A stretch of DNA of 64,000 nucleotides from positions 120,129,223 to 120,193,222 of the forward strand of contig OY757025.1 in NCBI GenBank assembly GCA_963580285.1, read 5' to 3'. Made by a program: the position numbers and the translations under genes. Shown in pieces: positions 2,786 through 60,333 of this stretch. This DNA is from Lucinisca nassula. Its lineage: Eukaryota > Mollusca > Bivalvia > Lucinida > Lucinidae. A model generated the notes under the pieces. The model made no database searches. It was given only the letters and a program-made list of their open reading frames with translations, and was not told the origin of the DNA. How positions within the stretch are numbered: the stretch's first letter is position 1; every line of letters starts with the position of its first letter.

Positions 2786-3697
2786 GTAAAGTAGAAGTAA
2801 AACAAAGATCAGGAATCGATACAATTAACTTACTCCACCCATTAAAGACACCAAAGGGAATGAAATACAAACATTAAGCGACCAGACCACAATGGAAACC
2901 TAAACAAAGGAAGGCCATAAGGACAGTTACTTTCCCACAAAATGGCCATATGGCCATCCAAAATTAAAAGACACAAGTGATACACATAGTAAGTAACAAA
3001 CAACAACATAAATAAATCGCAACAGAAGAACCGCCTTGGAACGGTCAGTGGAAAGATTTCCACTGGGGGGGGGGGGCTTAAATCGATTTTACGTGGCCAC
3101 AATTCTCGCCCTTACTTCCGCCGCGATTTAGACAAGTAATTTGTTCAGTCCGCATGAAGGCCTCCTAACTCATCAGTGCAACATCTCCGTGAACACAAAT
3201 AATCAAAGAACCACAGAGGTGAGCCAACGGTGAGGACTCGACAGCAAGAAACCACTGAAATGCTGGAGCAAAAGAAAACCAACAGTTAGACTCCGATGGG
3301 CCCGACCAGAGACAGAGCATCAGGCACCAACCAACATTACCTTGAATTAGATCTCTCTAATTCTCAATAAGCCTTTACGTTGGTACCGTCATAGAATCTG
3401 AGGCCTGACCCACCGGCGTGCAATTAAAGAGGGAAGCAAAGTTGCCAACCGTGATTGGGTTAACTACCATGCATGCAGTCTGTCGTATAGTATCCATGTT
3501 GTACCCAATCTTTTTATATCGAAGAATGAGTTTACGAAAGTGGGTGCTGAAGTCATTGCGGTTATATATTTTTCTGAATTTATATACTAAGTCACCATAA
3601 AATTCGGGTTCCGATAGACCTTGTTGCAGAAGAGATTTAAGTCCAATATTGAATTTTGAAATTAAATCAGAATGGCGTCTATAAAATTTTGAAAAGG
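2786..3697 (-). mobile_element. 5'-truncated PLE with C-terminal coding end
   Basis: Minus-strand PLE copy. The 3' tail is at 2786-3358, with a 10-G run at 3067-3076. Beyond it are about 113 codons (3375-3697) of the conserved C-terminal region after the RT: SKFYRRHSDLISKF, GLSEPEFYGDLVYKF and NPITVGNFASLFNCTPVG. It is an intact reading frame fragment and serves here as the reference for the hypermutated copy at 53.6 kb. It abuts a ribozyme unit at 3698. Confidence 0.8.
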
Positions 3698-3850
3698 CTC
3701 CCCGTACATCAACCATAGTGCAGTTTATATTTTACTTTTGGTCCTTTGAGATCAGCGTGAATATTCTGAGAAATCAGAAATAAATTATAGGTTTAGACTC
3801 ATATTCTAGATCGGTTTTTAATAATTTGGACCCCATTTCGATTTATATCA

Positions 3851-4345: not shown

Positions 4346-4735
4346 TTTGCCTTCACTGCAGCTGGTGTTGTGCCGTGTGGCGGCCGTAAAACGTCTCCCC
4401 GTACATCAACCATAGTGCAGTTTATATTTTACTTTTGGTCCTTTGAGATCAGCATGAATATTCTGAGAAATCAGAAATAAATTATCGGTTTAGACTCATA
4501 TTCTAGACAGGTTTTTAATTATTTGGACCCCATTTTGATTTTTATCAGTCTTTGAATCGACTGCCTATTCGAAATTCGTAAATTTGCAGTATGTTTCCTC
4601 TGGCTTTCTTTGCCGGATCATTACAGGGTCACTGATGAGGCTTTATTAGCCGAAACTACGTAGTATGACCCATCTTCTTTCTTATGAATGTTTTCATTGC
4701 TCCTAAAGGAACTCATTTTTGATTTTTATTTGCGT
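4346..4735 (+). repeat. Ribozyme unit 2
   Basis: Full-length unit of about 390 bp beginning 'gccttcactgcagctggtg' and ending 'aaggaactcatttttgattt'. It lies directly head-to-tail with unit 1. It is noncoding. Confidence 0.8.
4626..4671 (+). ncRNA. Hammerhead ribozyme (PLE type)
   Basis: Same fold as 4243-4288, with all core positions consensus. Stem III is ctacgtag, a perfect self-complement with no loop. The predicted cut lies after GTA, just before tgaccc. Confidence 0.82.
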
Positions 4736-5760
4736 AGTTTATGGTACCGATAACCCTGATTAAGAAGTTTAGCCGTTAATAATTTATTACGAGTGTTGAA
4801 GTCAGTTACATGACAACACACTCTAACATCGAATTAATTGCGAAATATAAACGCCATAGGATGGCACACGAGGAACGTCACCATCCAAAAAAGAAAATTT
4901 ACAATCTCAAAATCAAAGTCATCGCGTTAATCATAAATTTTGCATGAAACAAACCCATCTACAATAGATAGATGTAAATCCAAAAACGGGGCCTCGGTAT
5001 CATAAGAATTTGCTTTATTTAACTGAAGTTCTGGGGGGTAAATCTGACTGATCAAACCATCGAAATAGGTATTATCAATATTTAATAAATCATCTAAATA
5101 TCTAGAAGTGGAGCTAAAAGCTTCAATAATTTCAGATTGGTTATCAATGGAAAGCGACAACATGAAAAGTAGAGGTAAAACAAAGATCAGGAATCGCTAC
5201 AATTAACTTACTCCACCCATCAAAGACACCAAAGGGAAAGAAACACAAACTTTAAGCGACCAGACCATAATGGAAACCTAAACAAAGGAAGGCCATAAGG
5301 ACAGTTACTTTCCCACAAAATGGCCATATGGCCATCCAAAATAAAAAGACACAAGTGATACACACAGTAAGTAACAAACAACACCATAAATAAACCGCCA
5401 CAGAAGAACCGCCTTGGAACGGTCAGTGGAATGATTTCCACTGGGGGGGCTTAAATCGATTTTACGGGGCCACAATCCTCGCCCTTACTTCAGTCGCGAT
5501 TTAAACAAATAATTTGTCCAGTCCGCATGAAGGCCTCCTAACTCATCAGTGCAACATCTCCGTAAACACAAAAAATCAAAGAACCACAGAGGTGAGACAA
5601 CGGTGAGGACTCGACAGCAAGAAACCACTGAAATGCTGGAGCAAAAGAAAACCAACAGTTAGACTCCGATGGGAAGTCTCTTTCATAACAATACAAGAAT
5701 AGATCAGCCACAAGAGGTGCGCAATTCGTACCCATCGGATTGCCCACAATTTGTCTAATA
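4736..5760 (-). pseudogene. PLE reverse transcriptase fragment with nested tail
   Basis: RT palm pieces on the minus strand: GNPMGTNCAPLVADLFLYCY at 5667-5747, then SRYLDDLLNIDN and TEAPFLDLHLSIVDG at 4927-5163. The two pieces are separated by a second PLE tail (5164-5666), also minus, with a junction inside 'YERDF'. Stops follow 'CKIYD'. The YLDD catalytic motif is kept, but the copy is dead. It serves as reference for the 53.2-kb copy. Confidence 0.8.
5164..5666 (-). mobile_element. PLE tail nested in RT fragment
   Basis: Runs from 'tagaggtaaaacaaagatc' to 'ccaacagttagactccgatg'. The RT reading frame is continuous across its borders, so it landed in an older PLE copy of the same orientation. 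Confidence 0.75.
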
Positions 5761-27037: not shown

Positions 27038-27780
27038 GTAAAATAGAAGAGGAGGCAATGATCAGGAATCGATACAATCAACCCACAGCTCCTATCAGAG
27101 ACACAAGGGGAAAGACACACAAACATGGAACAACAGACCTCAATAGAAACACCAACAGCAATAAGCCAAAAGGACAGTCACTTTCCCACAAAATAGCCAA
27201 CATGGTATCCAAAACAAAACAACATAAGCGACACAAACACCCAAAGACAAACCATAACAAAAATAAATCGCGACAGAACAACCGCCTAGGAACGGTCGTC
27301 GGAAACGAACTCCACTAGGGGGCCCAAATCGACCCCACGTGACCACAATCCCCTTCCCCACCTCCGTCGCGATTTAGACAAACAACCCGCCCAGCCCGCA
27401 TGAAGGCCCCAACCCACCAGCGCAACTTTTCCGTGAACACATATAATCAAACAACCACAGAGATGAAACACCGGTGAGGACTCGACAGCAAGAAACCACT
27501 GAAACGCTGGAGCAAAAGAAAACCAACAGTTAGACTCCGATGGGACCGACCAGAGACACAGCACCAGGCACCAACCAACATCACCTTGAATCAGATCTCG
27601 CTAATTCTCAATAAGCCCCCACGCCGGAACCGCCACAGACCTTTACGCTGGAACCGGCATAAGCCTTTACGCTGGAACCGTCATAGAATCTGAGGCCTGA
27701 CCCACATGCGTGCAAATAAAGAGTGAATCAAACTTGTCAACCGTTATTGGGTTAACTACCATGCATGCAGTCTGTCGTTT
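27038..27780 (-). mobile_element. PLE tail plus C-terminal end, hypermutated
   Basis: Minus copy. 27295-27420 and 27601-27640 are rich in T-to-C differences on the + strand (gattttacg to gaccccacg, ataatttgttcagtcc to acaacccgcccagccc), which is A-to-G on the element strand. 'gcctttacgctggaaccg' is partly triplicated at 27615-27690. Confidence 0.8.
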
Positions 27781-27783
27781 TAT

Positions 27784-27920
27784 ATGAGGTGGTTCTAACG
27801 AGTACCCTTAATCTATATTTTCAGCAGAAATAAGAAATATATCACAATTTTTCATCTTAAAAATTTCTATATTCGGCGGTACAGTTTACAATGCATTTGT
27901 ATAGGCGTGTTTTCGTAATG
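27784..27920 (-). repeat. MITE-A half copy
   Basis: From 'gaggtggttctaacgag' to 'ataggcgtgttttcgtaatg'. Confidence 0.7.
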
Positions 27921-33586: not shown

Positions 33587-36110
33587 TGTTACATGTGGGT
33601 TTACGGCGTCCCGCAAACCCCCATGCTGGCAAGACAACCGAGCGTGATCTCTGACAGGTGTACGGGCAGCTGTGGGGTAAGGCACAAGAAAGATGTTAAA
33701 TGAATGACATGAATTATTTACAGTATCTACATACAACACTCACTAACACAAAACATCACAATTTGTTGCTTCTGTAGCCAACTCACGACGTCCGCTCCGA
33801 AGGCAAAACACTGTTCTGTGCTCGGAACGGGTGACGTGAATACCTACAGAAGCAAACAACAAAAACAACAACAAAAACAAAAAAAAAGAATCAACACAAA
33901 ACGCGACTGGCCAGTTTATGACTTAGGGTGAATTCCCCACTCGCGTGACACTTCCTCTCGCGAACTAGTAAAACTAGTCTATCAACATAGTTGATAATCC
34001 TAGGATTAGCGATCACGTTTGCTGATCAAATGTTTAGTGATCGTCCAAATAAGGTAAGTTGACCTCTTCCATGATCACATTTGTTTTCAACGAACAATGA
34101 TTTAGAAGAATCTGCTTCTATCCTGGTAGGCGCTGATTACGGCGGTCTGTCCGCCCTTGCTGGACCCTAACGCCTAGCGTCGTACCAGTACCTGCTGCTA
34201 TGAAGCAGGGAGCAGCAGGTCACACATTGTTATGCCTGCAAATTACGATAACGGGACTAGAAACGAGTCACAAAACATACATGCTATATCATGATCCCCC
34301 TCCCGGAGAAGTAAGAATATGTTCATGCATATACCGTTATTGCGCATGCGCCGACCAGACATACAGGCTGATTAGTGCATGCAACGAATAACCGTACAGC
34401 AGAACTCAACTTGACTGTGCATCAAATTATCAGCACCCAGCGCTTGACACAATAATACTCAAAGTTCATGTTTCCTTACTGAGCACTACAGAAATCAATT
34501 AATGCTCACTACTACTGAGCATGATACTCATCAAATTTGTGCTCACTACATTATCACAAGTAAGAGGCAATTGAACAGACCACGCCTTTGCGCTACCTGG
34601 TCAGCCGCCAATTACAGGAAACATAACAATCTCTATTTCATATCCTTCTCCGCGACACGGCTCACAAATATAGCTATTCACAAATTCAATACATTAATAA
34701 CAGATAGAAACTACAACAGAAGATTTTCATCTATAATCCCCAACATTTGTTAGTGTCTCATATGGGCCAACACTGTTTGCCGTAAATTCTCTCTATTTGG
34801 TAGGCACCCCGTCACAACCGTCCTCGCGACGCCGATGACGCAGCTGACGTCATCCCCGCCGCTCAGGCCGTTATGACGTGTGGCGACCAAATACTCCCAC
34901 TTATCATCATCACGTTCTTTATATGTACATACATGCACAAACTGAGTTATCAGACAAAAACGGCATCATTACAAAATGAACTCGTAATTCTTCTTGAACA
35001 AAATTATTTCTAATCAACGTGAACATGCTTGTAAAATAAAATTCATTACGGTTCATCATCACGGATAACCCAACAGGCTCTTGTAAGAGTTTGCCCTGAT
35101 GATGAAGATGTGGTTAAACCCGTCTTAAGTTTACGTCCCCTCTACACCTAATATCATATTGGGACGGAACCACGGTTTTCTAACCACAGCTAGTCACAAG
35201 TCATAGATCAAACAAGTGACCCGGCGTTTATTAATTACATTCTACAAAAGGGGTCTAAAAGCCTAAATGAATCTAGAATGAGCGGGTGTCCAAACTTTAC
35301 GTCTCACCAACATCTAGGGTCAGCATGAGACAGGACCTCACTTAGAAAGACTCATTCTACTACTGGAGAAGCCTGGGATCAATTCTGCGACGTCTAGCTG
35401 GCAAAGCTAGTAGCCTAATCACTACAGGCCACAACAGTAAATTCAGAATAGGCTTCAGAAAGTTGGGGTATACTAGAAGTAAACCCCTCCAAAACCTACA
35501 AGCATGTTCATACAAAAATAATACTATACATAGATTTAACATACCTTTCAATATACTTTCTATTTCCCCGTCACAATGTTGTGTTCTCTCTTACAACTTG
35601 ACCTGCTGCTAAAGTGTCCGCCCTTTTCAGGGTTTATATATCTATGAATACTACCGGAAAATCATGCCTACTCGTATTACCTTGCTTTGTTCGTGGGGAA
35701 GTGGAGATACCGGCCACAAACAAAGCCAGATAGCAAAAATCGAGTAGACAATGGATTTGCGTTCAAATAGTATATTTCCCATAGGAAAAATTGATGAAAC
35801 GACCCTATAATCAATGACATGACTCCTGTCAAAACGAACACCCACACAACACGTGACGGGAATAAAAATCATATATGGCACAATTTGGCGGTTGGCGATT
35901 TTTAGCGGCCCCCTGTATTGTAAAAACAGCTCTCTATAAACCACTCATGCATACATCGTATGATATGTGCATGACTTGTTCATGGAGCCGCATAGTTTGC
36001 GTACCATATTTCACCTAAAATATTTCACTCGCACCGCCCTACCATATATCTACTAAAATAATTTAGATGTGCATAAGCACCAGAGAGGTTTCCTATTCCA
36101 TCTCGTAACA
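33587..36110 (-). repeat. 3' LTR (left)
   Basis: 2524 bp. Reads TGTTACGAGATGG...CACATGTAACA on the minus strand. Lacks 28 bp present in the other LTR, apparently a deletion between two TTTTAG repeats (near 35900). Confidence 0.9.
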
Positions 36111-36275: not shown

Positions 36276-39200
36276 CTAGTAAGCCAAGGCGGTTTGCCCC
36301 AGAATTTTCCTGTTCCCGACATTCTGTTGTTTATTAGAAAACGGATATCGTTTTAATCTCACTGGAGGTGGCCTTTCTGGCTTAACAGATTTAATTGATT
36401 TCACAGGTTCTGACATAAATGTGGTACATATAATTTGGTCTGTCTGACATGTCAGTCCTGCAAGGCGCTGTTCTCTCAGCCCTTCTGTCTCCTCACTCTC
36501 CTCTGACGTTAGTGTGTGTGGGACGCTAACGTCGCCGTCACTTTCCTGTTGCTCTGCAGTTTCAAAACTGCTGTCTTCAAATGAAGACACGTCGACGTCA
36601 TTTCTGTCATGACTGTCTGTCGACATAATAGGTTTAGAGATCAGACAATGAGACGTCACAGTCTGACGCTCAACATATTGCTTCAGTATATTAGCATGAT
36701 ATGTGTTAACATTTCCATTGACGTCAATTTTATAATCCATTCTGTTCACTACCTCAACCACTTCATAAGGACCTTTCCATTGAAGCAATAATTTATTACT
36801 GTCTGTCGGTAGTAACAACAGTACTTTGTCGCCGACGTCAAATTTACGCGACCTCGCGCCTTTATCATAATAAGCTTTCTGCTTAATCTGAACCTTCTTT
36901 AAATTATCACGCGCTAATTTGCATGTCTGCTCTAACCGTTCCCTAAGCTCAATAACGTATTGATACGTCGAAAGAACTTGCTCATCGCGTACCTCTTCAG
37001 CCCATAAATCTCTTAATATTGCCATTGGACCTCTGACGTTACGTCCATATAACAACTCAAAAGGGGAGTATCCTAAAGACTCTTGTGGGACTTCCCTTAC
37101 CGCAAATAATAAAGCTGGAAGATATTTATCCCAATCTTTTGGACGTTCAGCACACATGCGACGTAACATCTGCTTTAACGTAGCGTGGAAACGCTCTATC
37201 AGTCCGTTGCAAATTGGGTGTCTCGGACTACACGTTAACTGTTGAAGAGAAAGAAGTCTGCTGACTTCCTTCATTACCTCAGCAGTAAACTGTGATCCAC
37301 AATCAGTCAACATTTCATCAGGAATGCCAACCCTACTAAACATTTCAATAAGCGCTTCCGCGACACGTTCCGTCTCAATACTCGGTAAAGCTATCGCCTC
37401 TGGATACCTTGTCGCATAATCTATCATGGTTAAAATATACCGAGATTTCCTATCAGATCGAGGCTCAATTGGACCAACTATGTCCACTGCCACCCTCTTA
37501 AATGGCGTATCAATCAATGGCATTTTTCCTAGAGGTACTTTAGTGACCCGACCTTTCTGAATAGTTCTCTGACAAATATCACAAGATTTACAAAATCTAG
37601 CGACATCACCGCAAATACCGGGCCAGTAAAACTCAGTTACAACTCTATCCAATGTCTTCCTAATACCCATATGTCCAGACATAAGCGTTTCATGAGCCAG
37701 TTTCAACACCTTTCCTCGGAAACTTTGAGGGACCACAAGTTGGAAAGAGACTTTGTTACCCTTGGTGAACTCCCTATATGCCAACCCTTTTTTCTCAATA
37801 AACCTAGTTTCACCTCGGTTTAAACCACGACTCACAGTCTTGTTCCCAGATACAACCCTTTTCCTGATGTTTTCCAAAGTTGGATCATCAACCTGAGCTT
37901 GCTTGAAAGCCTCCTTGTCATCGTTAATGATCTGATCGGGAACCTTAAGTTTTCTGTAAGGCTTCTCATCCTGCCTAGTTTGAGACCTAGTTACAGCCGC
38001 AGCTGAGAAATGAGACATATCAGGAAGTTTTGATCCATCAATGTTACCGATAACCAAATCGTACAACGTATCATCCATACACAAAGCTTCAGTTTTCCCA
38101 GTGAAAAAAGGACAATCAATGTCAATCATTGCCAAAGGATACCTTTGTGTGGATTCATCAATCAACGTAACATTTGATTCCTTTCCTATTAACTGACTAT
38201 CCGAAACCAAACTTCTCCGAACGACACAGCCTGTACACCCAGTATCTCTTAATACAACCACCTTTTTATTATTAACCAAACCTTGTGCCGTCGGTAACCT
38301 TGCCTTTAAGAAGTAACAGACACCTTCCCTAGTTTCCTTACTAAACTCCTCCCTATCCGAAATCAAAGGATCACCAACCTTATTTTCAAAAATACTTCCA
38401 ATCTCATCACCTTTCCTAGTTACTTCTGTCTGACAAAAACTAACTTGGTGTGCTGCGCCACGTGGTGTGGTATTATTTTTACCGCGTCCGCGAAAAGACC
38501 CTCTGAAATTACCACGACCACGTGTATAACCACGACCTACATTCTGCGTATTCTCATTCTTAACCTGAGAACCTTGAGTCTCTACGCGCGTGTTAAAATT
38601 TTCTTTAACACCGCTATCCCCCACTCCAGTTGCTCCTACCTCTGCGCTATACAATTGTTTCCTGTCGGGGTTCTTAAAACATTTAATTGTTAAATGCCCC
38701 TTACCGCATATGCTACACTTGATATCCGGTCTACCACTCGGTTTGTTCGAGTCAACTTTGTCCTGTTTACCCTGCGCTGCGCCTCTATTATCGCGTTGCC
38801 CCTTATTAATGCAACTATATACGCCCCCGCGCGCTTCTGCAAACAAATCTGCCTCCCTAGCCATTTCATCTAAATTACCAAACTGTTTTGGCTTCAGATG
38901 TACATACAGTTCTCTATTACATGACTCCAGGAACTGATCCCTTGCCATGAAATCACAGACAGCCGGAAAAGATTTTTCTATCTTTGCCATATTAAGCCAT
39001 TTTTCTAAATAACTTCTCAGTCTACTACTGAACTGTATGAACGTTTCTGACTTCTCGGGCCTACTATAACGAAACTGTTTCCTAAATCCGCGCTCTGTCA
39101 TGTCAAAATTCTTTAATAAAGCGTCCTTTAACTTTTCATAATCCGCCGCATCCTCATTTGACAACCGGTCATATACATCAAGTGCGCGCCCTTTGAGCAA

Positions 39201-39758
39201 TGCACTTAAATACGCGGCCCAAACACTCTTATCCCATTTATTAGCCGTAGCATATTTCTCAAACCTAGATAAATAACTATCCATTTTATCTTTACCCTCT
39301 TCAAAATAAGGTAACTTAGGATCCCGGGCATGCGCCACCTTCTCAGCTTTTTGGTTTTCAAATTCTAGCTCGAGCTTCGCTCTCTGCATTTCTAACTGAT
39401 TCCTTAATTCTTGGTGCTGTAGCTCAAACCCATGTTTTATTTTTTCTAAATGGGCCTCACTAATCTCTTTTACCTCCCTTTCAGTCTTAATGCGTGCCAT
39501 TTCAAGTTCCTTATTAACATTCAACATAGCTAGTTCATGTGCCCTTTCCTTTTCTTTTTCTGCCCTTTCCTTTTCTTTTTCTGCCCTTTCCTTTTCTTTT
39601 TCTTCAGACCTTAACCTTTCTAAATCCCTTTGCTCTTGCCTTTCTGCCCGCTCAATATCCTGCTGCTCTTTAACAAAACCTTGTAACTCCTTCCCCTCAT
39701 AACCTAAGTCCTTTCCCATTTGCATTAAACGCTCCATTATTGATAACGTAAATCTCAC
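36276..39758 (-). CDS. Gag-protease-integrase polyprotein
   Basis: 1160 codons, uninterrupted. Residues about 30-150 are a charged coiled coil with a thrice-repeated EKEKERA unit. 150-310 is a capsid-like region. About 348-361 is a CCHC knuckle (CSICGKGHLTIKC). 390-430 is an RGG-like stretch (RGYTRGRGNFRGSFRGRG). VVVLRDTGCTG near 500-510 is the retropepsin DTG. The integrase has an HHCC domain at about 689-729, catalytic D759, D819 and E854 (D,D-35-E) and a chromo-like C-terminus near 970-1015. The tail after about 1100 (PPPVRLKRYPF) may be the edge of a lost RT. Confidence 0.9.
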   Translation of the reverse strand: MRFTLSIMERLMQMGKDLGYEGKELQGFVKEQQDIERAERQEQRDLERLRSEEKEKERAEKEKERAEKEKERAHELAMLNVNKELEMARIKTEREVKEISEAHLEKIKHGFELQHQELRNQLEMQRAKLELEFENQKAEKVAHARDPKLPYFEEGKDKMDSYLSRFEKYATANKWDKSVWAAYLSALLKGRALDVYDRLSNEDAADYEKLKDALLKNFDMTERGFRKQFRYSRPEKSETFIQFSSRLRSYLEKWLNMAKIEKSFPAVCDFMARDQFLESCNRELYVHLKPKQFGNLDEMAREADLFAEARGGVYSCINKGQRDNRGAAQGKQDKVDSNKPSGRPDIKCSICGKGHLTIKCFKNPDRKQLYSAEVGATGVGDSGVKENFNTRVETQGSQVKNENTQNVGRGYTRGRGNFRGSFRGRGKNNTTPRGAAHQVSFCQTEVTRKGDEIGSIFENKVGDPLISDREEFSKETREGVCYFLKARLPTAQGLVNNKKVVVLRDTGCTGCVVRRSLVSDSQLIGKESNVTLIDESTQRYPLAMIDIDCPFFTGKTEALCMDDTLYDLVIGNIDGSKLPDMSHFSAAAVTRSQTRQDEKPYRKLKVPDQIINDDKEAFKQAQVDDPTLENIRKRVVSGNKTVSRGLNRGETRFIEKKGLAYREFTKGNKVSFQLVVPQSFRGKVLKLAHETLMSGHMGIRKTLDRVVTEFYWPGICGDVARFCKSCDICQRTIQKGRVTKVPLGKMPLIDTPFKRVAVDIVGPIEPRSDRKSRYILTMIDYATRYPEAIALPSIETERVAEALIEMFSRVGIPDEMLTDCGSQFTAEVMKEVSRLLSLQQLTCSPRHPICNGLIERFHATLKQMLRRMCAERPKDWDKYLPALLFAVREVPQESLGYSPFELLYGRNVRGPMAILRDLWAEEVRDEQVLSTYQYVIELRERLEQTCKLARDNLKKVQIKQKAYYDKGARSRKFDVGDKVLLLLPTDSNKLLLQWKGPYEVVEVVNRMDYKIDVNGNVNTYHANILKQYVERQTVTSHCLISKPIMSTDSHDRNDVDVSSFEDSSFETAEQQESDGDVSVPHTLTSEESEETEGLREQRLAGLTCQTDQIICTTFMSEPVKSIKSVKPERPPPVRLKRYPFSNKQQNVGNRKILGQTALAY

Positions 39759-40473: not shown

Positions 40474-43025
40474 TGTTACATGTGGGTTTACGGCGTCCCG
40501 CAAACCCCCATGCTGACAAGACAACCGAGCGTGATCTCTGACAGGTGTACGGGCAGCTGTGGGGTAAGGCACAAGAAAGATGTTAAATGAATGACATGAA
40601 TTATTTACAGTATCTACATACAACACTCACTAACACAAAACATCACAATTTGTTGCTTCTGTAGCCAACTCACGACGTCCGCTCCGAAGGCAAAACACTG
40701 TTCTGTGCTCGGAACGGGTGACGTGAATACCTACAGAAGCAAACAACAAAAACAACAACAAAAACAAAAAAAAAGAATCAACACAAAACGCGACTGGCCA
40801 GTTTATGACTTAGGGTGAATTCCCCACTCGCGTGACACTTCCTCTCGCGAACTAGTAAAACTAGTCTATCAACATAGTTGATAATCCTAGGATTAGCGAT
40901 CACGTTTGCTGATCAAATGTTTAGTGATCGTCCAAATAAGGTAAGTTGACCTCTTCCATGATCACATTTGTTTTCAACGAACAATGATTTAGAAGAATCT
41001 GCTTCTATCCTGGTAGGCGCTGATTACGGCGGTCTGTCCGCCCTTGCTGGACCCTAACGCCTAGCGTCGTACCAGTACCTGCTGCTATGAAGCAGGGAGC
41101 AGCAGGTCACACATTGTTATGCCTGCAAATTACGATAACGGGACTAGAAACGAGTCACAAAACATACATGCTATATCATGATCCCCCTCCCGGAGAAGTA
41201 AGAATATGTTCATGCATATACCGTTATTGCGCATGCGCCGACCAGACATACAGGCTGATTAGTGCATGCAACGAATAACCGTACAGCAGAACTCAACTTG
41301 ACTGTGCATCAAATTATCAGCACCCAGCGCTTGACACAATAATACTCAAAGTTCATGTTTCCTTACTGAGCACTACAGAAATCAATTAATGCTCACTACT
41401 ACTGAGCATGATACTCATCAAATTTGTGCTCACTACATTATCACAAGTAAGAGGCAATTGAACAGACCACGCCTTTGCGCTACCTGGTCAGCCGCCAATT
41501 ACAGGAAACATAACAATCTCTATTTCATATCCTTCTCCGCGACACGGCTCACAAATATAGCTATTCACAAATTCAATACATTAATAACAGATAGAAACTA
41601 CAACAGAAGATTTTCATCTATAATCCCCAACATTTGTTAGTGTCTCATATGGGCCAACACTGTTTGCCGTAAATTCTCTCTATTTGGTAGGCACCCCGTC
41701 ACAACCGTCCTCGCGACGCCGATGACGCAGCTGACGTCATCCCCGCCGCTCAGGCCGTTATGACGTGTGGCGACCAAATACTCCCACTTATCATCATCAC
41801 GTTCTTTATATGTACATACATGCACAAACTGAGTTATCAGACAAAAACGGCATCATTACAAAATGAACTCGTAATTCTTCTTGAACAAAATTATTTCTAA
41901 TCAACGTGAACATGCTTGTAAAATAAAATTCATTACGGTTCATCATCACGGATAACCCAACAGGCTCTTGTAAGAGTTTGCCCTGATGATGAAGATGTGG
42001 TTAAACCCGTCTTAAGTTTACGTCCCCTCTACACCTAATATCATATTGGGACGGAACCACGGTTTTCTAACCACAGCTAGTCACAAGTCATAGATCAAAC
42101 AAGTGACCCGGCGTTTATTAATTACATTCTACAAAAGGGGTCTAAAAGCCTAAATGAATCTAGAATGAGCGGGTGTCCAAACTTTACGTCTCACCAACAT
42201 CTAGGGTCAGCATGAGACAGGACCTCACTTAGAAAGACTCATTCTACTACTGGAGAAGCCTGGGATCAATTCTGCGACGTCTAGCTGGCAAAGCTAGTAG
42301 CCTAATCACTACAGGCCACAACAGTAAATTCAGAATAGGCTTCAGAAAGTTGGGGTATACTAGAAGTAAACCCCTCCAAAACCTACAAGCATGTTCATAC
42401 AAAAATAATACTATACATAGATTTAACATACCTTTCAATATACTTTCTATTTCCCCGTCACAATGTTGTGTTCTCTCTTACAACTTGACCTGCTGCTAAA
42501 GTGTCCGCCCTTTTCAGGGTTTATATATCTATGAATACTACCGGAAAATCATGCCTACTCGTATTACCTTGCTTTGTTCGTGGGGAAGTGGAGATACCGG
42601 CCACAAACAAAGCCAGATAGCAAAAATCGAGTAGACAATGGATTTGCGTTCAAATAGTATATTTCCCATAGGAAAAATTGATGAAACGACCCTATAATCA
42701 ATGACACGACTCCTGTCAAAACGAACACCCACACAACACGTGACGGGAATAAAAATCATATATGGCACAATTTGGCGGTTGGCGATTTTTAGGCAAATTC
42801 TATAGGACTCGGCCTTTTAGCGGCCCCCTGTATTGTAAAAACAGCTCTCTATAAACCACTCATGCATACATCGTATGATATGTGCATGACTTGTTCATGG
42901 AGCCGCATAGTTTGCGTACCATATTTCACCTAAAATATTTCACTCGCACCGCCCTACCATATATCTACTAAAATAATTTAGATGTGCATAAGCACCAGAG
43001 AGGTTTCCTATTCCATCTCGTAACA
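40474..43025 (-). repeat. 5' LTR (right)
   Basis: 2552 bp, nearly identical to the left LTR; differences seen include the 28-bp block at about 42792-42819 and single bases (for example g/a near 40517, t/c near 42707). Confidence 0.9.
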
Positions 43026-48363: not shown

Positions 48364-49295
48364 GGATGTGTTAACCGTTAGAGACTCTTCGAGCTTTGAA
48401 TTTAGACACGGTCATTTCATGTCAATGGGGTTTTATAGACGTCATTCTGATTTGGTTTCAAAATTCAGTGTTGGACTTAAAACTCTTCTGCAACAAGGCC
48501 TATCGGAACCCGAATTCTATGGTGACTTAGTATATAAATTTAGAAAAAAACATGCCTGTAATGACTTTAGTGCCCAATTTCGTAAAATCGTTAGTCGATA
48601 TATAAAGATTGGGTACAACATATATGTTATAAATCAGACTACATGCATAGTGGTTAACCCAATCACGGTTGGCAACTTTGCTTCCCTCTTTGGTTGCACA
48701 CCGGTGGGTCGGGCCTAGGATTATATGACGGTTCCAGCGTAAAAACATAAATGGAATTTTATTTAAGTATTCTGTATGTTGTTGACGCCTGATGCTCCGT
48801 CTTTCGTCGGGCCCTTCGTATTCTAACTGTTGGTTTTCTTTTGCTCCAGCAATTCTGTTGTTGTATGCTGTCAAGTCCTTAACTTTGTTTCATCTCTGTA
48901 GTTTTTTTATTCGTATGAGTTAGGAAGCCTTCATGTGGACTAAACTTAATTAGTGTATACCGCAACAGAGGTAAGGGCGAGGATTATGGCCATGTAAAAT
49001 CGATTTAAGCCCCCCAGTGGAATTCTTTCCACTGACCGTTCCAATGCGGTACTTCTGTGGCGGTTTATTTATGTTCTTGTTTGGTACTTACTGTGTGTAT
49101 CATTTGTGTATTTTTATTTTGGATGACCATTTGGCCATTTTGTGGGAAAGTAACTGTCCTAATGGCCTTCCTTTGTTCAGGTTTCAATTATGGTCTGGTC
49201 GCTTAATGTTTGTGTTTCTTTCCCTTTGGTGTCTTTGATGGGTGGAGAAAGTTAATTGGATCGATTCCTGATCTTTGTTTTAATTCTATTTTTCT
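48364..49295 (+). mobile_element. PLE copy with C-terminal coding end and tail
   Basis: GFYRRHSDLVSKFSVGLKTL through NPITVGNFASLFGCTPVGR (48430-48718), then the full 3' tail to 'tttgttttaattctattt'. Used as an unedited reference for 53.6 kb. Confidence 0.8.
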
Positions 49296-49431: not shown

Positions 49432-49995
49432 AAACTTTGCTTTGCTTCCCTCTTTAATTGCACGCCAGTGGGCCTCAGATTCTATGACGGTTCCTGCGTA
49501 AATGCTTGCTTAGAATTAAAGAGAATCTAATTTTATGTAATGTTGGTTGGTGCCTGGTGCTCTTTCTCTGGTTGGGCCCATCGGAGTCTAACGGTTGGTT
49601 TTCTTTTGCTCCAGCATTTGAGTGTTTTCTTGCTGTCGAGTCCTCTCTATTGTTTCATCTGTGTGGTTGATTGATTTTTGTGTTCACGGAGTTGTTGCAC
49701 TGATGAGTTGGGAGGCCTCCATGCGGGCTGGGAGGATTGTTTGTCTGGATCGCGGCAGAGGACGGGGCGGGGATTCTCTTTGGTTTGTCTTTGAATCTTT
49801 GTTTTGCTTATATTATTTTGTTTCGGATAGCCAAATTGGCCATTTTGTAGCAAAGTTACTGTCCTTTTGTCTTTCCGGTATTGATCTTATAATAAGGGTC
49901 TGTCGTTTCATGTTTGGGTTTCGTTCCCTTTGATGTCTCTGATGGGAATGTTGGTTAATTGTATCGATTCCTGATCATTGCCTTCACTTCTATTT
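49432..49995 (+). mobile_element. PLE tail, hypermutated patch
   Basis: Sense tail. 49700-49775 differs from other copies mostly by A-to-G (gactgaacaaatta to gggctgggaggattg). Confidence 0.75.
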
Positions 49996-51470: not shown

Positions 51471-51490
51471 GGGTCACTGATGAGGCTTTA
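51471..51490 (+). ncRNA. Hammerhead 5' half, split by the PLE
   Basis: gggtcactgatgaggcttta is followed by the PLE. The 3' half (ttagccgatactacgtagta, tgaccc) lies at about 54920-54950. Confidence 0.7.
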
Positions 51491-51607
51491 ATGTCGACAC
51501 TCCTGGAATGTCGAAAACGCAGAACTAGATCTCACGGCACCAGGAAAAATGGTAACTTTAAACGTAAATCACGTGCGTTTAAACGAAACAAAACTAGACT
51601 GAAGTGA
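51491..51607 (+). CDS. Short basic ORF upstream of RT
   Basis: 38 codons starting MSTLLECRKRRTRSHG, very rich in Arg and Lys, ending TGA. It may be the remnant of the N-terminal part of the RT protein or a chance frame. Confidence 0.3.
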   Translation: MSTLLECRKRRTRSHGTRKNGNFKRKSRAFKRNKTRLK

Positions 51608-51643
51608 CTGTCAATTATATTATTAAATCATGGACGCCACTCT

Positions 51644-53950
51644 ATGCTTTCATTTTTAAGTTCATTACCCGTTTCTGTTTTACGTCTTCTGGACACCGAG
51701 GCGAATAAATTCTACGATAGTTCTCATCAGTTATATGATGCGGCTCTCTTAACTAGAGGCTATACTCAGCATACTCTCCGTCCTTACATTGATTCTGAAA
51801 TTAATCATAAACGCCATTTCTTCAAAATATCCTTCATTAATAAGGGTATGGATTTTATAGATTTGCCCAGTATCTTCCGTGAGAGATCGGTGCTTTCTTC
51901 CATTCCTGCTTATTTTCAAAATACTGAAACACCTATAATTTGCTATAAATATAACAAACCTGTTAGATCTATCATTTTTAATTTCAATAAACTTGTTTCA
52001 GATCTTGATATTGATACCAATACTCCTGATTCATGTGATTGTAAAAACTCAAAGTATTGCTATCCTGCTGCTGGTCATGTGATTACTGGCAATTTGAAAA
52101 TTATTCCTGATTCTAGGATAAGGAATATAATTTCTAAAGGACCGAAATATCGGTTTCCTTCTAAAATTGATTTCAGTAAATGTAGAGATGAAATCGCTGC
52201 TTCCTTGAATGAATTCGGTAATCGATGGTGTAAGCGAGAGTATGTTGAGCATAAAGCCCTTAAGGACTGGAAACTTAGCATTTTAAAACTAGTGAATAAA
52301 CGCATTTCTTTCTATTCTCAAAATACTAACTTATTACCTCCTAAGCCCAAAACGTCTTTACGTCATCTTAAACTAGGTATTCAAGAATTTCATAAGAAGT
52401 TTGTTTTGGCCCCTGCAGACAAGGCCGCTAACAACGTCGTCGTTGTGTGACGGCTCCACTATTTTAACACGCTTAAGCAGGAGCTTGGTGGTACTAAGGC
52501 CTATGAACTTCAGCCTTTAGCTGAAGAGAGAGCTATAGTAGATAAACATGTTTGTCTTTCAGCCACCAAGTTTGCTGTGTGTGTTAACGAAGGCCAAGAC
52601 AAGCTTCCTACGCTATACTGGTTACCAAAACTTCATAAAAAACCTTACAAAGCACGGTTTATTGCAAATTCTAGCTCTTGCACTACCACTGAACTTTCTA
52701 AATTATTAACTTCCTGTCTTACTGCTATTAAAACGCATGTAATTAAATATTGTGATAAAGTCTTTGAAAGATCAGGAAGAAATCTGTTTTGGTCTATAAA
52801 AAATTCGAATGAGGTTTTAAATAAATTGAAATCTAGACATTTTCGTGCTTCTAGTCTGTCTACTTACGATTTTTCCACTCTTTACACTACACTTCCTCAT
52901 AATCTTATAAAAGAAAAGCTTAATGATTTAATTGAATGGGCTTTTCACAGAGAAGATTCTCTCCATCTTGCATGTAATGTCAGAAATGCATTTTTCTCTT
53001 CTAAAGAGCATAAGAATTATACACTTTGGTCATGTCAGAAAGTGTGTGATGCCCTCACCTTTCTACTTGACAATATTTATATTAGATTCGGTACTAATTT
53101 ATTTAGACAAATTGTTGGTATTCCGATGGGTACTAATTGCGCACCTCTTGTGGCTGATCTGTTCTTGTATTGTTATGAAAGAGACTTCATTTTGTCGCTT
53201 TCCATTGATAACCAATCTGAAATTATTGAAGCTTTTAGCTCTACTTCTAGATATTTAGATGATTTATTAAATATTGATAATACCTATTTTGATGGTTTGA
53301 TCAGTCGGATTTGCCCCCTAGAGCTTCAGTTGAATAGGGCAAATTCTTCTGATACCGGGGCCCCGTTTTTGGATTTACGTCTGTCTGTTGTGGATGGATT
53401 TGTTTCGTGCGGGATTTGTGGTGGACGCGATGACTTTGATTTTGAGATTGTAGGTTTTCCTTTTTTGGCTGGTGATGTTCCTCGTGCGCCGTCCTGTGGC
53501 GTTTATGTTTCGCAATTGGTTCGGTTTGCTGGAGTGTGTGGTCGTGTGGCTGACTTCAACACTCGTAATAAATTATTAACGGCTAGACTCCTTGGTCGGG
53601 GTTATCGGTACCATGGACTTCGCAAAGCCTTTTAAAAATTTTGTGGGCGCCGTTCTGGTTTGGTTTCGGAATTCAATGTTGGGCTTGGGTCTCTTCTGCG
53701 GCGGGGTCTGTCGGAACCCGAATCTTGTGGTTACTTAGTGTGTGGGTTCGGAAAAATGTGTGGCCGCGGTGACTTCGGCGCCCAATTTCGTGGGGTCGTT
53801 CTTCGATGTAAAAAGATTGGGTACAACATGGATATTATACGACAGACTGCATGCATGGTGGTTAACCCAATCACGGTTGGCAACTTTGCTTCCCTCTTTA
53901 ATTGCACGCCGGTGGGTCAGGCCTCAGATTCTATGACGGCTCCAACGTGA
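51644..53950 (+). pseudogene. PLE reverse transcriptase, two nonsense codons
   Basis: One frame throughout. N-terminal region (CDCKNSKYCYPAAGHVITGN) to 52447. TGA at 52448-52450. RT: YWLPKLHKKPYKARFIANSS (motif typical of PLE, 'LPK.HK'), STYDFSTLYTTLPH (motif A), GIPMGTNCAPLVADLFLYCY (motif B), SRYLDDLLNIDN (motif C). TAA at 53633-53635 (other copies have Ser, tca). The C-terminal domain ends NPITVGNFASLFNCTPVGQA. From about 53290 the sequence carries a dense A-to-G excess that changes many codons (Lys to Gly, Tyr to Cys, Gln to Arg). Confidence 0.85.
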
Positions 53951-54513
53951 AGGCTTGTTGAAAATTAGAGAGATAATGTTGGTTGGTGCCTGGTGCTCTG
54001 TCTCTGGTCGGGCTCATCGGGGTCTGGCTGTTGGTTTTCTTTTGCTCCGGCGTTTCGGTGGTTTCTTGTTGTCGAGTCCTCACCGTTGTCTCACCTCTGT
54101 GGTTCTTTGATTTTTGTATTCACGGAGATGTTGCACTGATGAGTTAGGAGGCCTTCATGCGGACTGAACAAATTATTTGTCTAAATCGCGACAGAAGTAA
54201 GGGCGAGGATTGTGGCCACGTAAAATCGATTTAAGCCCCCCGGTGGAAATCTTCCACTGACCGTTCCAAGGCGGCTCTTCTGTGGCGATTTATTTATGTT
54301 GTTGTTTGTTACTTACTGTGTGTATCACTTGTGACTTTTGGTTTTGGATGGCCATATGGCCATTTTGTGGGAAAGTAACTGTCCTTATGGCCTTCCTTTG
54401 TTTAGGTTTCCATTATGGTCTGGTTGCTTAATGTTTGTATTTTTTTCCCTTAGGTGTCTTTTATGGGTGGAGTAAGTTAATTGTATCAATTCCTGATCTT
54501 TGTTTTACTTCTA

Positions 54514-54917
54514 CTTTAGATGTTGCACTGATGAGTTAGGCGGCCTTCATGCGGACTGAACAAATTATTTGTCTAAATCGCGACGAAAGTAAGGGCGAGG
54601 ATTGTGGCAACGTAAAATCGATTTAAGCCCCCCCCCCCCCCCCAGTGGAAATCTTCCACTGACCGTTCCAAGGTGGCTCTTCTGTGGCGATTTATTTACG
54701 TTGTTGTTTGTTACTTACTGTGTGTATCACTTGTGTCTTTTAATTTTGGATGGCCATATGGCCATTTTGTGGGAAAGTAACTGTCCTTATGGCCTTCCTT
54801 TGTTTAGGTTTCCATTATGGTCTGGTCGCTTAATGTTTGTATTTCTTTCCCTTTGGTGTCTTTTATGGGTGGAGTAAGTTAATTGTATCAATTTCTGATC
54901 TTTGTTTTACTTCTACT
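54514..54917 (+). mobile_element. Second PLE tail, head-to-tail
   Basis: Starts at 'agatgttgcactgatgagt' directly after the first tail end; C15 run at 54630-54644. Confidence 0.8.
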
Positions 54918-54985
54918 TTATTAGCCGATACTACGTAGTATGACCCATCTTCTTTCTTATGAATGTTTTCATTGCTCTTAAAGGA

Positions 54986-55354
54986 AAGTAGAAGTAAAAC
55001 AAAGATCAGGAATTGATACAATTAACTTACTCCACCCATAAAAGACACCAAAGGGAAAGAAATATAAACATTAAGCGACCAGACCATAATGGAAACCTAA
55101 ACAAAGGAAGGCCATAAGTACAGTTACTTTCCCACAAAATGGTCATATGGCCATCCAAAACCAAAAGACACAAGTGATACACACAGTAAGTAACAAACAA
55201 CAACATAAATAAATCGCCACAGAAGAGCTGCCTTGGAACGGTCAGTGGAAGATTTCCACTTGGGGGCTTAAATCGATTTTACGTGGCCACAATCCTCGCC
55301 CTTACTTCCGTCGCGATTTAGACAAATAATTTGTTCAGTCCGCATGAAGGCCTC
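54986..55354 (-). mobile_element. PLE tail nested in ribozyme unit
   Basis: Minus tail between 'cattgctcttaaaggaa' and 'aaggaactctttttt'; 'aagga' is duplicated at the borders. Confidence 0.8.
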
Positions 55355-55516
55355 CTAAGGAACTCTTTTTTTATTTTTACGCTATGAAGTAGGACAGGGA
55401 GATTTGGCACTCTGGGTAAAAAGTAAGCAGTCGACAATTGAAAATATTCTATTATTTGCCTTTGGATTCAGATTTTGACATTTCGTGCAAGGAGACAATT
55501 TGAATTTAATGTCAAA

Positions 55517-56830
55517 ATAGAATTGGAGGCAATGATCAGGAATCGATACATTTAACCCACACCTCCAATCAGAGACACTAAAGAAAAAGAAACACAAGCA
55601 CGAAGCAACAGACCCCGATGGAAACACCAACAGCTGAAAGACAAAGCATAGTTACTTTCCCCCAAAATGGCAAATAGGCTATCAAAATTAAAATAATATA
55701 AGCGACACAAACACCCAAAGACAAGCCATAACAAAAATAAACCGCTTTAGAAGAACCGCCTTGAAACGGCCAGCGGAATCGAATTCCACTACGGGGCTTA
55801 AATCGATTTAAACGTGGCCACAATCCTCGCCCTTACTTCGGTCGCGATTAAGACAAATAATTTGAATAGTCCGCATGAAGGCCGCCAAACTCATGAGTGC
55901 AGTATCTCCGTGAACACAAAAACCAAACAATCACAGAGATGAAACAACGGTGAGGACTCGACAGCAAGAAACCACTGAAATGCTTGAGCAAAAGAAAACC
56001 AACAGTTAGACTCAGATGGACCCGACCAGAGACAGAGCATCAGGTACCAACCAACATAAGCTTTTACGTTGGAACCGTCATATAATCTGAGGCCTGATCC
56101 ACTGTCGTGCAATTAAAGAGGGAAGCAAAGTTGTCAACCGTGATTGGGTTAACAACCATGCATGCAGTCTGTCTTATAACATTTATGTTGTATCCAATCT
56201 TTTTATATCGAAGAATGATTTTACAAAGTTGGGTGCTGAATTCATTGCGGTTATATATTTTTCTGAATTTATATACTAAGTCACCGTAAAATTCGGGTTC
56301 TGATAGACCTTGTTGCAGAAGAGATTTAAGTCCAATATTGAATTTTGAAACTAAATCAGAATGACGTCTATAATATTTTGAAAAGGCTTTTCGTAGTTAT
56401 GGTACCGATAACCCTGATTAAGAAGTTTAGCCGTTAACAATTTATTACGAGTATTGAAGTCAATTACATGACTACACACTCTAGCAAATCGAATTAATTG
56501 CGAAATATAAACGCCATAGAATGGCGCACGAGGAACATCACCAGTCAAATACGGAAAATTTACAATCTCAAAATCAAAATCGTCGCGTTTATCATACATT
56601 TTGCAAGAAACAAACCCATCTACAATAGAAAGATGTAAATACAAAAACGGGGCCTAGGTATCAGGAGAATTTGCTTTATTCACCTGAAGTTCTGGTGGGT
56701 GGGATTTGACTAATCAAACCATCGAGATAGGTATTATCAATATTTAATAAATCATCCAAATATCTAGAAGTGGAGCTAACAGCCTCCTTACAGGGTAATT
56801 AAGAAAAATGCCATTAATTTGTCGTCTGCT
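55517..56830 (-). pseudogene. PLE copy with tail and decayed RT end
   Basis: Tail 55517-56060, then the C-terminal region (56100-56390) and RT relics: LHLSIVDGFVSCKMYDKRDD and DFNTRNKLLTAKLLNQGYRY near 56420-56640, with the YLDD region around 56750. Several stops and shifts. Confidence 0.75.
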
Positions 56831-58803: not shown

Positions 58804-60333
58804 CACTGCTCAAAACAATTAAAGGAGCAAACACATATTTCCTCATAGTATAAAGATGTTGGCTAATGATAATGAAACAACGATTCAGAAAGATGAATAA
58901 CTTTATCTGTAGCATGTTAATGGCAAACATTGGCAAGCAGTCCACAAATCACGGCCAGTAACTTGTTAAGGGAGAATTAGTATAACTGTTTGAGAAATCG
59001 CCATCTTTACGTCAGATTAGTTTAAATCTCATAGACATGAGCAAATCAGTCACTTTTTCCTGTCAGTAATGTGTATGACCACCTCGAGCCTGGCATCGCC
59101 GAGGCATGCTACGAACCACATTTTGCACAGTTTGTAAAGCTAGTTTTTCCCACTAATGTCTGAGGATATTTGATTCCCACCCCTTCTAAGGATGTTTGTG
59201 AGTTATTGAAGTCATTGGTGGATGATCGCCCCGTGAGATACGTCTGTAAAGAATGTGCTACACATGTTCTATAGGGTTTAAGTCAGGAGAACGTGCCGGC
59301 CAGTCCGTTTCGTTGCACACTTTAGCAGTATGGGTGCGCGTACTATCCTGCATCAGAATGAAATTGTCACCGGTAGTCCTAGCGTAAGGCCTAACAATAG
59401 GATCTAGAATTTCATCTCGATAGCGTAATGCAATCAATGTATCTCCGTTCAGCACTCACAATTCGCTCGGCCTTCGAAGAAATTCCACCCCATACCATCA
59501 CTAATCTCAATCCATATTTGTCTGTTTCCATAATGCTGCAGTCTTCGTATCGTTCTCCAGATCGTCTCCAGACTCGAACACGTCGATCACATGCACTCAG
59601 GTGAAATTTGCTTTCATCCGTGAACAGAACTGTATGCCAGTCATGCAATCGCCAGTTCTGATGTTCTTGGGCAAACTTATATCGCGGTGCACGATGTTGC
59701 CTGGTGAGAATAGGCCCTCTTGCCGGAAGTCTGGCCCTCAGATCACCTTCATGTAACATGTTACGTATTGTTTGATCGGATATCCTTTGACCAATTGCAT
59801 GATGGAAATCGATTTGTAGCCTTCTTGCCGTGTACTGCCCATTCCATAGCCCTAGATTTCGAAGATAATGATCTGCCCTTTGTGACGTCATGCGGTGTCG
59901 GCCTTGTCCTTCTCGTCTAGTAAACTCGCCCGTTTCTTGGTTGCGTCTCACTAGCCTTGCAACAATACTTCTCGATACATCAAAGTGCTCAGCAACGATC
60001 CTTTGGGTGTACCCACTTTCGAGCAAAGCGCTATCCTGAGCGACATCAACTTCTAAGTACCGCCTAACACCAGGTGAAGTCACTATGACGCCCAAAATAA
60101 CGTAAAATCGAAGTATTGAACAGATCGCCCCATACCGAATTTCAGCCGTTTTGTTGGGTAGCCATGCTGTAGCTCACATTCATGCTTTGCACGTGAACCT
60201 TGCTTCTTGACGTTTACATGAACATTGTTAAGAGATGTCGCTTTAAAATAGTGCCTTTCCTTGTGTTTGAAAACTGCCAAGCGTTGATGTTATACAGGTT
60301 TTAATTTTGCTCCTTTAATTGTTTTGAGCAGTG
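58804..60333 (-). mobile_element. Tc1/mariner-type transposon
   Basis: 1530 bp with perfect 28-bp terminal inverted repeats (58804-58831 and 60306-60333, cactgctcaaaacaattaaa...) flanked by TA on both sides, the Tc1 target duplication. The size is typical of Tc1 elements. Confidence 0.92.
59060..60095 (-). pseudogene. Tc1-like transposase, frameshifted
   Basis: The N-terminal frame (59412-60095) has helix-turn-helix regions (SGYTQRIVAEHFDVSRSIVA; TARRLQIDFHHAIGQRISDQ) and the first catalytic Asp in FTDESKFHL. A shift near 59440 moves to a second frame with LMQDSTRTHTAKV (second Asp) and DWPARSPDLNPIEHV (third acidic residue), then a stop. About a dozen residues between the last two motifs are missing. 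It is inactive. Confidence 0.9.

Follow-up and report, generated by a model that had tools for sequence, protein, structure and literature searches.

Fossil DNA editing of retroelements is already known for cytidine deaminases. Adenine-specific mutation linked to reverse transcription occurs in diversity-generating retroelements (DGRs), whose reverse transcriptases (RTs) produce all three substitutions at A, and A-to-G hypermutated retroviruses, such as variants of avian leukosis virus, carry clusters of A>G changes in DNA after reverse transcription. Naiad-type Penelope-like elements (PLEs), as Craig and colleagues reportedly described in 2021, have an N-terminal endonuclease and selenocysteine-like UGA codons; A>G hypermutation has not, to our knowledge, been reported for these elements. 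On the side of the enzymes, mollusk ADAR1 is reported to have TA, AA, and CA as strong targets, GA as a weak one, and no strong 3' preference (PMC6651903), and G is reported to be depleted 5' of edited sites in human and Xenopus (PMC2873906).

The PLE copies analyzed here, in a window of 64,000 nucleotides from the bivalve Lucinisca nassula and elsewhere in its genome, can be set against each of these systems. Unlike the avian leukosis virus variants, which are sporadic isolates, the PLE is a non-LTR element present in many separate copies across the genome, and its hypermutated region has a fixed edge. Unlike DGRs, it shows only A>G, together with an ADAR-like neighbor order. Possible points of likeness to Naiad-type PLEs are the telomerase RTs that are the best fold matches of the modeled RT, and a putative GIY-YIG-like motif upstream in frame along with several in-frame UGAs. 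As in the action of mollusk ADAR1 on herpesvirus transcripts (PMC6651903), the changes are A>G only, clustered, with T, A, or C favored over G on the 5' side and little 3' preference; unlike in that case, the changes sit in the DNA of a retroelement, where they would be a lasting record of RNAs since reverse-transcribed. The closest parallel in DNA is the APOBEC3 "DNA editing" of retroelements, which (PMC2873906) is likewise a clustered, strand-specific, and permanent hypermutation of one type by a host deaminase. There the change is opposite, G>A and not A>G, and the direction seen in the PLE therefore points to an adenosine deaminase acting on RNA before reverse transcription and not to a cytidine deaminase acting on cDNA after it.

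The focal copy, F, occupies 51498..54518 on the plus strand, with an RT frame from 51644, a 3' part, and a terminal repeat, and on its 5' side it abuts other repeats at about 51490. When changes over 53186-54518 are polarized on the window copies other than F and two further edited ones (G and K, below), G replaces A at 85 of 308 A sites, C replaces T at 7 of 482 T sites (Fisher p about 3e-30), and all changes other than A>G number 34 when pooled. The A>G excess over other window PLE copies that the preliminary description had claimed is confirmed and is larger than claimed; the cluster is real. Pairwise, A>G accounts for 36 of the 50 differences between F and the copy at 5166-4729 (minus strand), for 54 of 80 with that at 3699-2787 (minus), for 58 of 155 with that at 48431-49292 (plus), and for 105 of 237 with that at 56786-55514 (minus). 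The finer claims stand as well. About 39 A>G against about six other changes had been counted in some 190 bp from 53630, and our position list for 53630-53820 holds 39 against 4; the excess had been placed from near 53290, with a return in the tail at 54005-54065, and the first A>G of F is at 53307, with 6 A>G in that part of the tail. Upstream, at 51.6-53.2 kb, where no excess had been claimed, F differs at 10 of 1769 sites, once by A>G, in a comparison (51490-53285) with the majority of 39 fetched genome copies at sites with at least five copies and 80% agreement. The main A>G zone, 53307..53808 on the plus strand, lies 3' of the YLDD motif, still in RT coding sequence, and contains 72 A>G sites. 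A small second patch at 53993..54057 (plus strand) contains 7, and parts of it are also edited in genomic copies L028/L039 and L029.

Two other copies in the window are edited. Copy G (27039..27785, minus strand) has A>G at 39 of 124 sites versus T>C at 9 of 263, most densely at 27300-27421, and copy K (49440..49775, plus strand) has 18 of 62 versus 1 of 115, most densely at 49710-49770. Copies B2 (2787..3699, minus) and B1 (4729..5166, minus) are unedited and served for comparison, as did copy C (48431..49292, plus), in which A>G at 14 of 175 A sites is not far above G>A (13), T>A (12), and C>T (12). Copy D (55514..56786, minus; A>G 15/277, T>C 19/461), which lies about 1 kb from F in the opposite orientation, is not hyper-edited. 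In a self-comparison of the window, the only pairs in which one transition type reached 15 changes and half of the total were PLE pairs, and these involve F and copy G; the excess in K is seen when its changes are polarized. The window also holds a long frame with integrase core and H2C2 domains (36276-39758), of the LTR-retrotransposon type, flanked by a 2.3-kb direct repeat that is 99.9% identical (33587-35905 and 40474-42792); the repeats are probably the two LTRs of that frame, in a young insertion. A further frame at 59412-60095 carries a Tc3-type transposase helix-turn-helix.

Two sets of copies were drawn from the 2.93-Gb genome that contains the window. For the first, the query was the edited part of F; 40 of 9323 candidates were scored, 41 matches were listed, and 39 copies were fetched, the two not taken being F and a partial match. 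These were selected by similarity to the edited part of F, which biases the extent and frequency of editing among them. At the 88 sites with G in F and A elsewhere, they carry 4-49 G each, most in a mosaic of their own. Four pairs of near-neighbor copies share their edits wholly or largely (L043/L044, 61/67; L028/L039, 64/66; L017/L021, 26/26; L011/L020, 76/98), are likely duplications, and were reduced to one each, giving 36 non-duplicate copies including F. Among the 36, 25 have at least 20 edits in 53090-53815; L031, L032, L034, and L046 are barely edited (4-9 of 214 A sites), in L046 without clustering. For the second set, the upstream RT part served as query; it gave 40 matches, of which 29 besides F were obtained as loci. 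Their choice by upstream likeness to F biases them toward an unedited upstream part and does not bias most of the edited zone, where they carry 0-4 A>G each at 107-214 A sites. Because these copies keep A with so few exceptions, A is ancestral and F is derived. It was F that changed and not the reference copies, as had been proposed, and G is not the ancestral base.

Substitution counts across genomic copies, which the preliminary description had suggested as a check, single out A>G as the sole raised type, arranged in tracts. In the 36 copies, A>G occupies 1889 of the 20,673 A cells and T>C 52 of the 27,461 T cells, while G>A and C>T have counts of 58 of 14,289 and 63 of 14,168; per 1000 cells these are rates of 91, 1.9, 4.1, and 4.5, to be compared with 1.2 for A>C and 2.6 for A>T. 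A column was taken as ancestrally A when it had at least 30% A and at least 90% A plus G, a rule that leans to A and is independently backed by the 29 upstream-selected copies. The excess is confined to the sense strand of the element, with no comparable excess of T>C, which is about 50 times rarer per site; equal rates of the two had been named as an outcome that would speak against editing. The derived copies show no APOBEC-type excess of G>A or C>T (4.1 and 4.5 versus 91 for A>G), nor the DGR-type change of A to any base, A>C and A>T being near background.

The edits are run-clustered (runs-test mean z -6.7 over the 36 copies). With a tract defined as at least four edits and never two consecutive unedited A, there are 169 tracts of median length 20 bp, in which 88% of A is converted, a figure that follows in part from the definition. 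Conversion in tracts depends on the 5' base in the order T (0.95), A (0.88), C (0.77), and G (0.61; chi-square p about 1e-26), which is an ADAR-like order; a check of neighbor preference against that of ADAR had been proposed. Over the whole hot zone the order is unchanged and weaker (0.231, 0.210, 0.178, and 0.114), the depletion of 5' G is only about twofold (0.114 versus 0.231 for 5' T), and the 3' base of the edited A has little effect. Correlation between edits decays over about 50 bp. A search for an 11-nt periodicity gave no stable period, the bootstrap favoring about 6 nt in 233 of 300 draws.

The position of the edits within the element is also not uniform. Because the query was the edited part of F itself, the recount was limited to A sites at which F keeps A, which the search does not favor as G. 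At these sites G makes up 16% (79/486) in 53700-53799, 6% (15/245) in 53800-53819, 1.1% (8/697) in 53820-53899, and 2.2% (17/769) in 53900-53989, then 5.8% (49/852) in 54190-54299, 9.0% (64/708) in 54300-54463, and 1.1% (4/379) in 54464-54518. Of 35 copies, 21 are informative about the edge near 53815 (at least three edits nearby, with 5'-G sites excluded), and every one of them has the higher rate to its left. On these two grounds, both hot zones are sharp on the right and fade leftward. Between them, adjoining the edge, lies a cold zone in which A is rarely edited (53816..53989, plus strand; 4 A>G in F itself), and the second, weaker hot zone (54190..54463, plus strand), which has few edits in F, is seen in other copies. 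The leftward extent differs among edited copies that reach far upstream: F, L011, L017, and L045, for example, have 0-5 A>G in 51500-53000 and dense tracts in 53000-53815; in 52400-53000, 28 edits are counted in L009 and 31 in L028; and L044 is edited across the whole RT frame.

The edge near 53815 probably marks the end of an RNA duplex. An alternative that concerns the edge only, and that is compatible with ADAR editing, is that the cold zone holds a signal that must be intact for an RNA to be used as a template, such that RNAs edited there leave no copies. It would account for a cold zone lying between two hot zones in the same copies (L010, L016, and L028 have 22, 23, and 25 edits in 54190-54463 versus 1, 0, and 1 of 46 in 53820-53989). 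However, L029 and L027 were inserted despite 11 and 6 cold-zone edits of 46, and the step-like form of the edge fits a duplex end as well or better, so that this alternative seems to us somewhat unlikely, although it deserves to be weighed.

If the edge is a duplex end, what was the partner strand? Several candidates can be put aside. First, the predicted fold of one unedited sense copy bears no relation to edit frequency (rho 0.08, p 0.26), and intramolecular folding is rejected on this ground as the source of double-stranded RNA. Second, opposite-strand pieces longer than 150 bp adjoin 8 of 68 copies within the fetched flanks, and neighboring inverted copies are rejected as the partner, none of the flanking pieces ending at 53815. 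Third, a hairpin transcript spanning F and D is rejected as the edited molecule because D has no A>G excess on the plus strand of the window (T>C in its own sense, 19/461). The terminal repeats that face each other at 54536-55358 form a long inverted repeat of about 90% identity, and a read-through RNA across them would form a long hairpin. Most simply, the partner would be an antisense RNA with its start near 53815-53820 and a leftward course, to which we give slightly less than an even chance. Counting against one long perfect duplex, the tracts are short and dense, blockier than such a duplex would be expected to leave. A TATA-like word (TATAATAT) can be read from the minus strand at 53832..53839, and an antisense RNA starting at the edge would have it about 20-30 bp upstream; this is a guess only and proves nothing.

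We estimate at roughly 85% the probability that F is the product of ADAR hyper-editing of sense PLE RNA before reverse transcription. On this account, sense-strand PLE RNA would be partly double-stranded, host ADAR would convert many of the duplex adenosines to inosine, the RT of the element would read inosine as G, and the edited copy, once inserted in the germ line, would persist as sense-strand A>G. Many other copies would have been hyper-edited independently by the same route, and a duplex with a defined end would account for both the sharp 3' edge near 53815 and the gradual 5' decay. The enzyme, its action before reverse transcription, and the antisense partner are what we infer; the direction, strand, ancestral A, tracts, neighbor preference, low site sharing, edge, and ADAR-family exons are direct observations. 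The last of these are PF02137 exons on C9, C12, C15, C16, and C130 of the genome, one of which is closest to human ADAR2. ADAR followed by reverse transcription, the explanation offered by the preliminary description, thus gains support from the A>G-only direction on the sense strand, the tracts, the T>A>C>G order, ancestral A, the copy-specific patterns, and these exons. Three features go beyond that description: editing is recurrent in the family, it has a sharp end near 53815, and related elements show a counterpart at the protein level.

The direction, strand, neighbor order, and low sharing between copies make another cause unlikely. One candidate is a mutagenic RT that is error-prone at template A, as in DGRs, and places C opposite A in bursts without any deaminase, and indeed the changes are adenine-specific, on the sense strand only, and in bursts. 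But A>G alone is raised, the 5'-neighbor order is that of ADAR, copies sampled regardless of editing in this zone are mostly unedited, and a general fault of the RT would not be expected to respect a fixed edge at 53815; we regard this origin as quite improbable. Equally improbable, in our judgment, is a mosaic produced by gene conversion among older edited copies, and not by one editing event per copy. Short tracts that alternate with unedited stretches are what it would leave, yet copies have few edited sites in common (over 465 pairs of copies with at least 10 edits, the overlap has a median of 0.13 and a maximum of 0.41), the patterns being mostly copy-specific, and the donor must itself have been edited beforehand. 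Finally, the opposite polarity, in which G is ancestral and an APOBEC-like cytidine deaminase mutated the other copies G>A on cDNA, has nothing in its favor beyond bare A/G variation and can be dismissed, given A at nearly all sites in the 29 upstream-selected copies and the A-coded residues retained by aligned homologues.

Hyper-edited copies are a minority, about 1% in a 35-base piece of the element, with a wide error. A pattern for this piece with R at every A has 19,664 matches in the genome; among the 100 listed, one or more G occur in 8, and a single place is hyper-edited (L042 of the edited-part set). Six copies were fetched from that list, three of them chosen for one or two G; one aligned over 54153-54517 only, and of the five readable over the hot zone none is hyper-edited. 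It is from the one in 100 listed places and the none in five copies that the edited share appears small. Copies L060, L061, L065, and L070 on C12 are PLE units head to tail, about 4155 bp apart, which shows that PLE tandem arrays exist.

The retrotransposon family is young. A model of its protein, built on the read-through RT frame of the unedited copy L062 with 24 sequences, has moderate confidence (pLDDT 64), and in Foldseek each of the 9 chains that it matches at an E of 0.001 or lower belongs to a telomerase RT (best E 2.6e-6), with low TM-scores of 0.17-0.32; a match to telomerase RT, weak here, is as expected of Penelope-like RTs. Pfam and NCBIfam named no RT in the PLE protein, and a PDB sequence search with it gave no match. 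Full-length copies have, upstream of the RT and in frame, a GIY-YIG-like stretch, IYLIT*RAANCNMQYVGQT, recognized by eye at a place with no Pfam family, and the in-frame stops read through in this upstream part are all TGA. The TGA at 52448 is present in 48 of 49 covering copies (68 aligned), where homologues have Cys or Trp, and the stop at 51605 is aligned with Cys in P0023 and with Asp in P0009 and P0057, all by eye. Around these TGAs and those in the upstream part of L054, L061, and L068, the RT/endonuclease-like frame is otherwise open. The in-frame TGA codons may perhaps encode selenocysteine; a search for a SECIS element in 53900-55400 gave no match at E up to 5. The view of the 52448 TGA as an ADAR recoding site is without support, the sole copy with TGG, L044, being hyper-edited over the whole RT frame. 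Two homologue groups, P0024/P0026/P0034 and P0027, begin just after this codon. At 54135-54200 and the matching place in G and K there is a CTGATGAG-type word recalling the hammerhead ribozyme core, changed to CTGGTGGG in copy G; Rfam gave no hammerhead match at 54135-54200.

A similar process may have acted on related elements. A homologue search found 901 proteins, of which the best 120 were listed; with the query these make 121, of which 14 are reference parents and 107 were compared. Among the homologues listed, 13 of the 107 show A>G-type recoding, for which we required 12 or more residue changes of the A>G type, outnumbering those of the G>A type by more than four to one, and their parents (P0002, P0026, P0036, P0044, and P0071) are 75-81% identical to the PLE protein. 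At the level of protein sequence, this suggests that hyper-editing extends beyond this PLE family. Two of the homologous proteins carry the names of bins of Thiodiazotropha, which are symbionts of lucinid clams; a scan of genome contigs for relatives of the element found none. By title and opening of the abstract, the papers surveyed gave no report of A>G fossils in PLEs, from which we do not claim that none is in print.

A clear and recurrent adenosine-deaminase counterpart to the known cytidine-deaminase fossils would show ADAR meeting germ-line retroelement RNA before reverse transcription and leaving heritable damage. Each edited copy would stand for a single RNA molecule, which allows duplex regions and essential cis regions to be mapped from DNA alone, and the family, in which perhaps 1% of about 20,000 copies are hyper-edited in a given piece, is a resource for such mapping. 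More tentatively, and taken together at somewhat short of even odds, germ-line ADAR would be a mutational brake on Naiad-type retroelements, an adenosine-side counterpart of APOBEC3; an internal antisense start at about 53815 would give the element an RNA that is double-stranded across the RT core; some new insertions would be hyper-edited from birth, and the genome would keep perhaps some hundreds of these; and related elements in other animals would undergo the same process. If so, the ends of the duplexes and the preference of ADAR would be readable from the hyper-edited copies that were kept. The A>G scars described here suggest that, through RNA editing, a host can put a mutational brake on retrotransposons of this kind.
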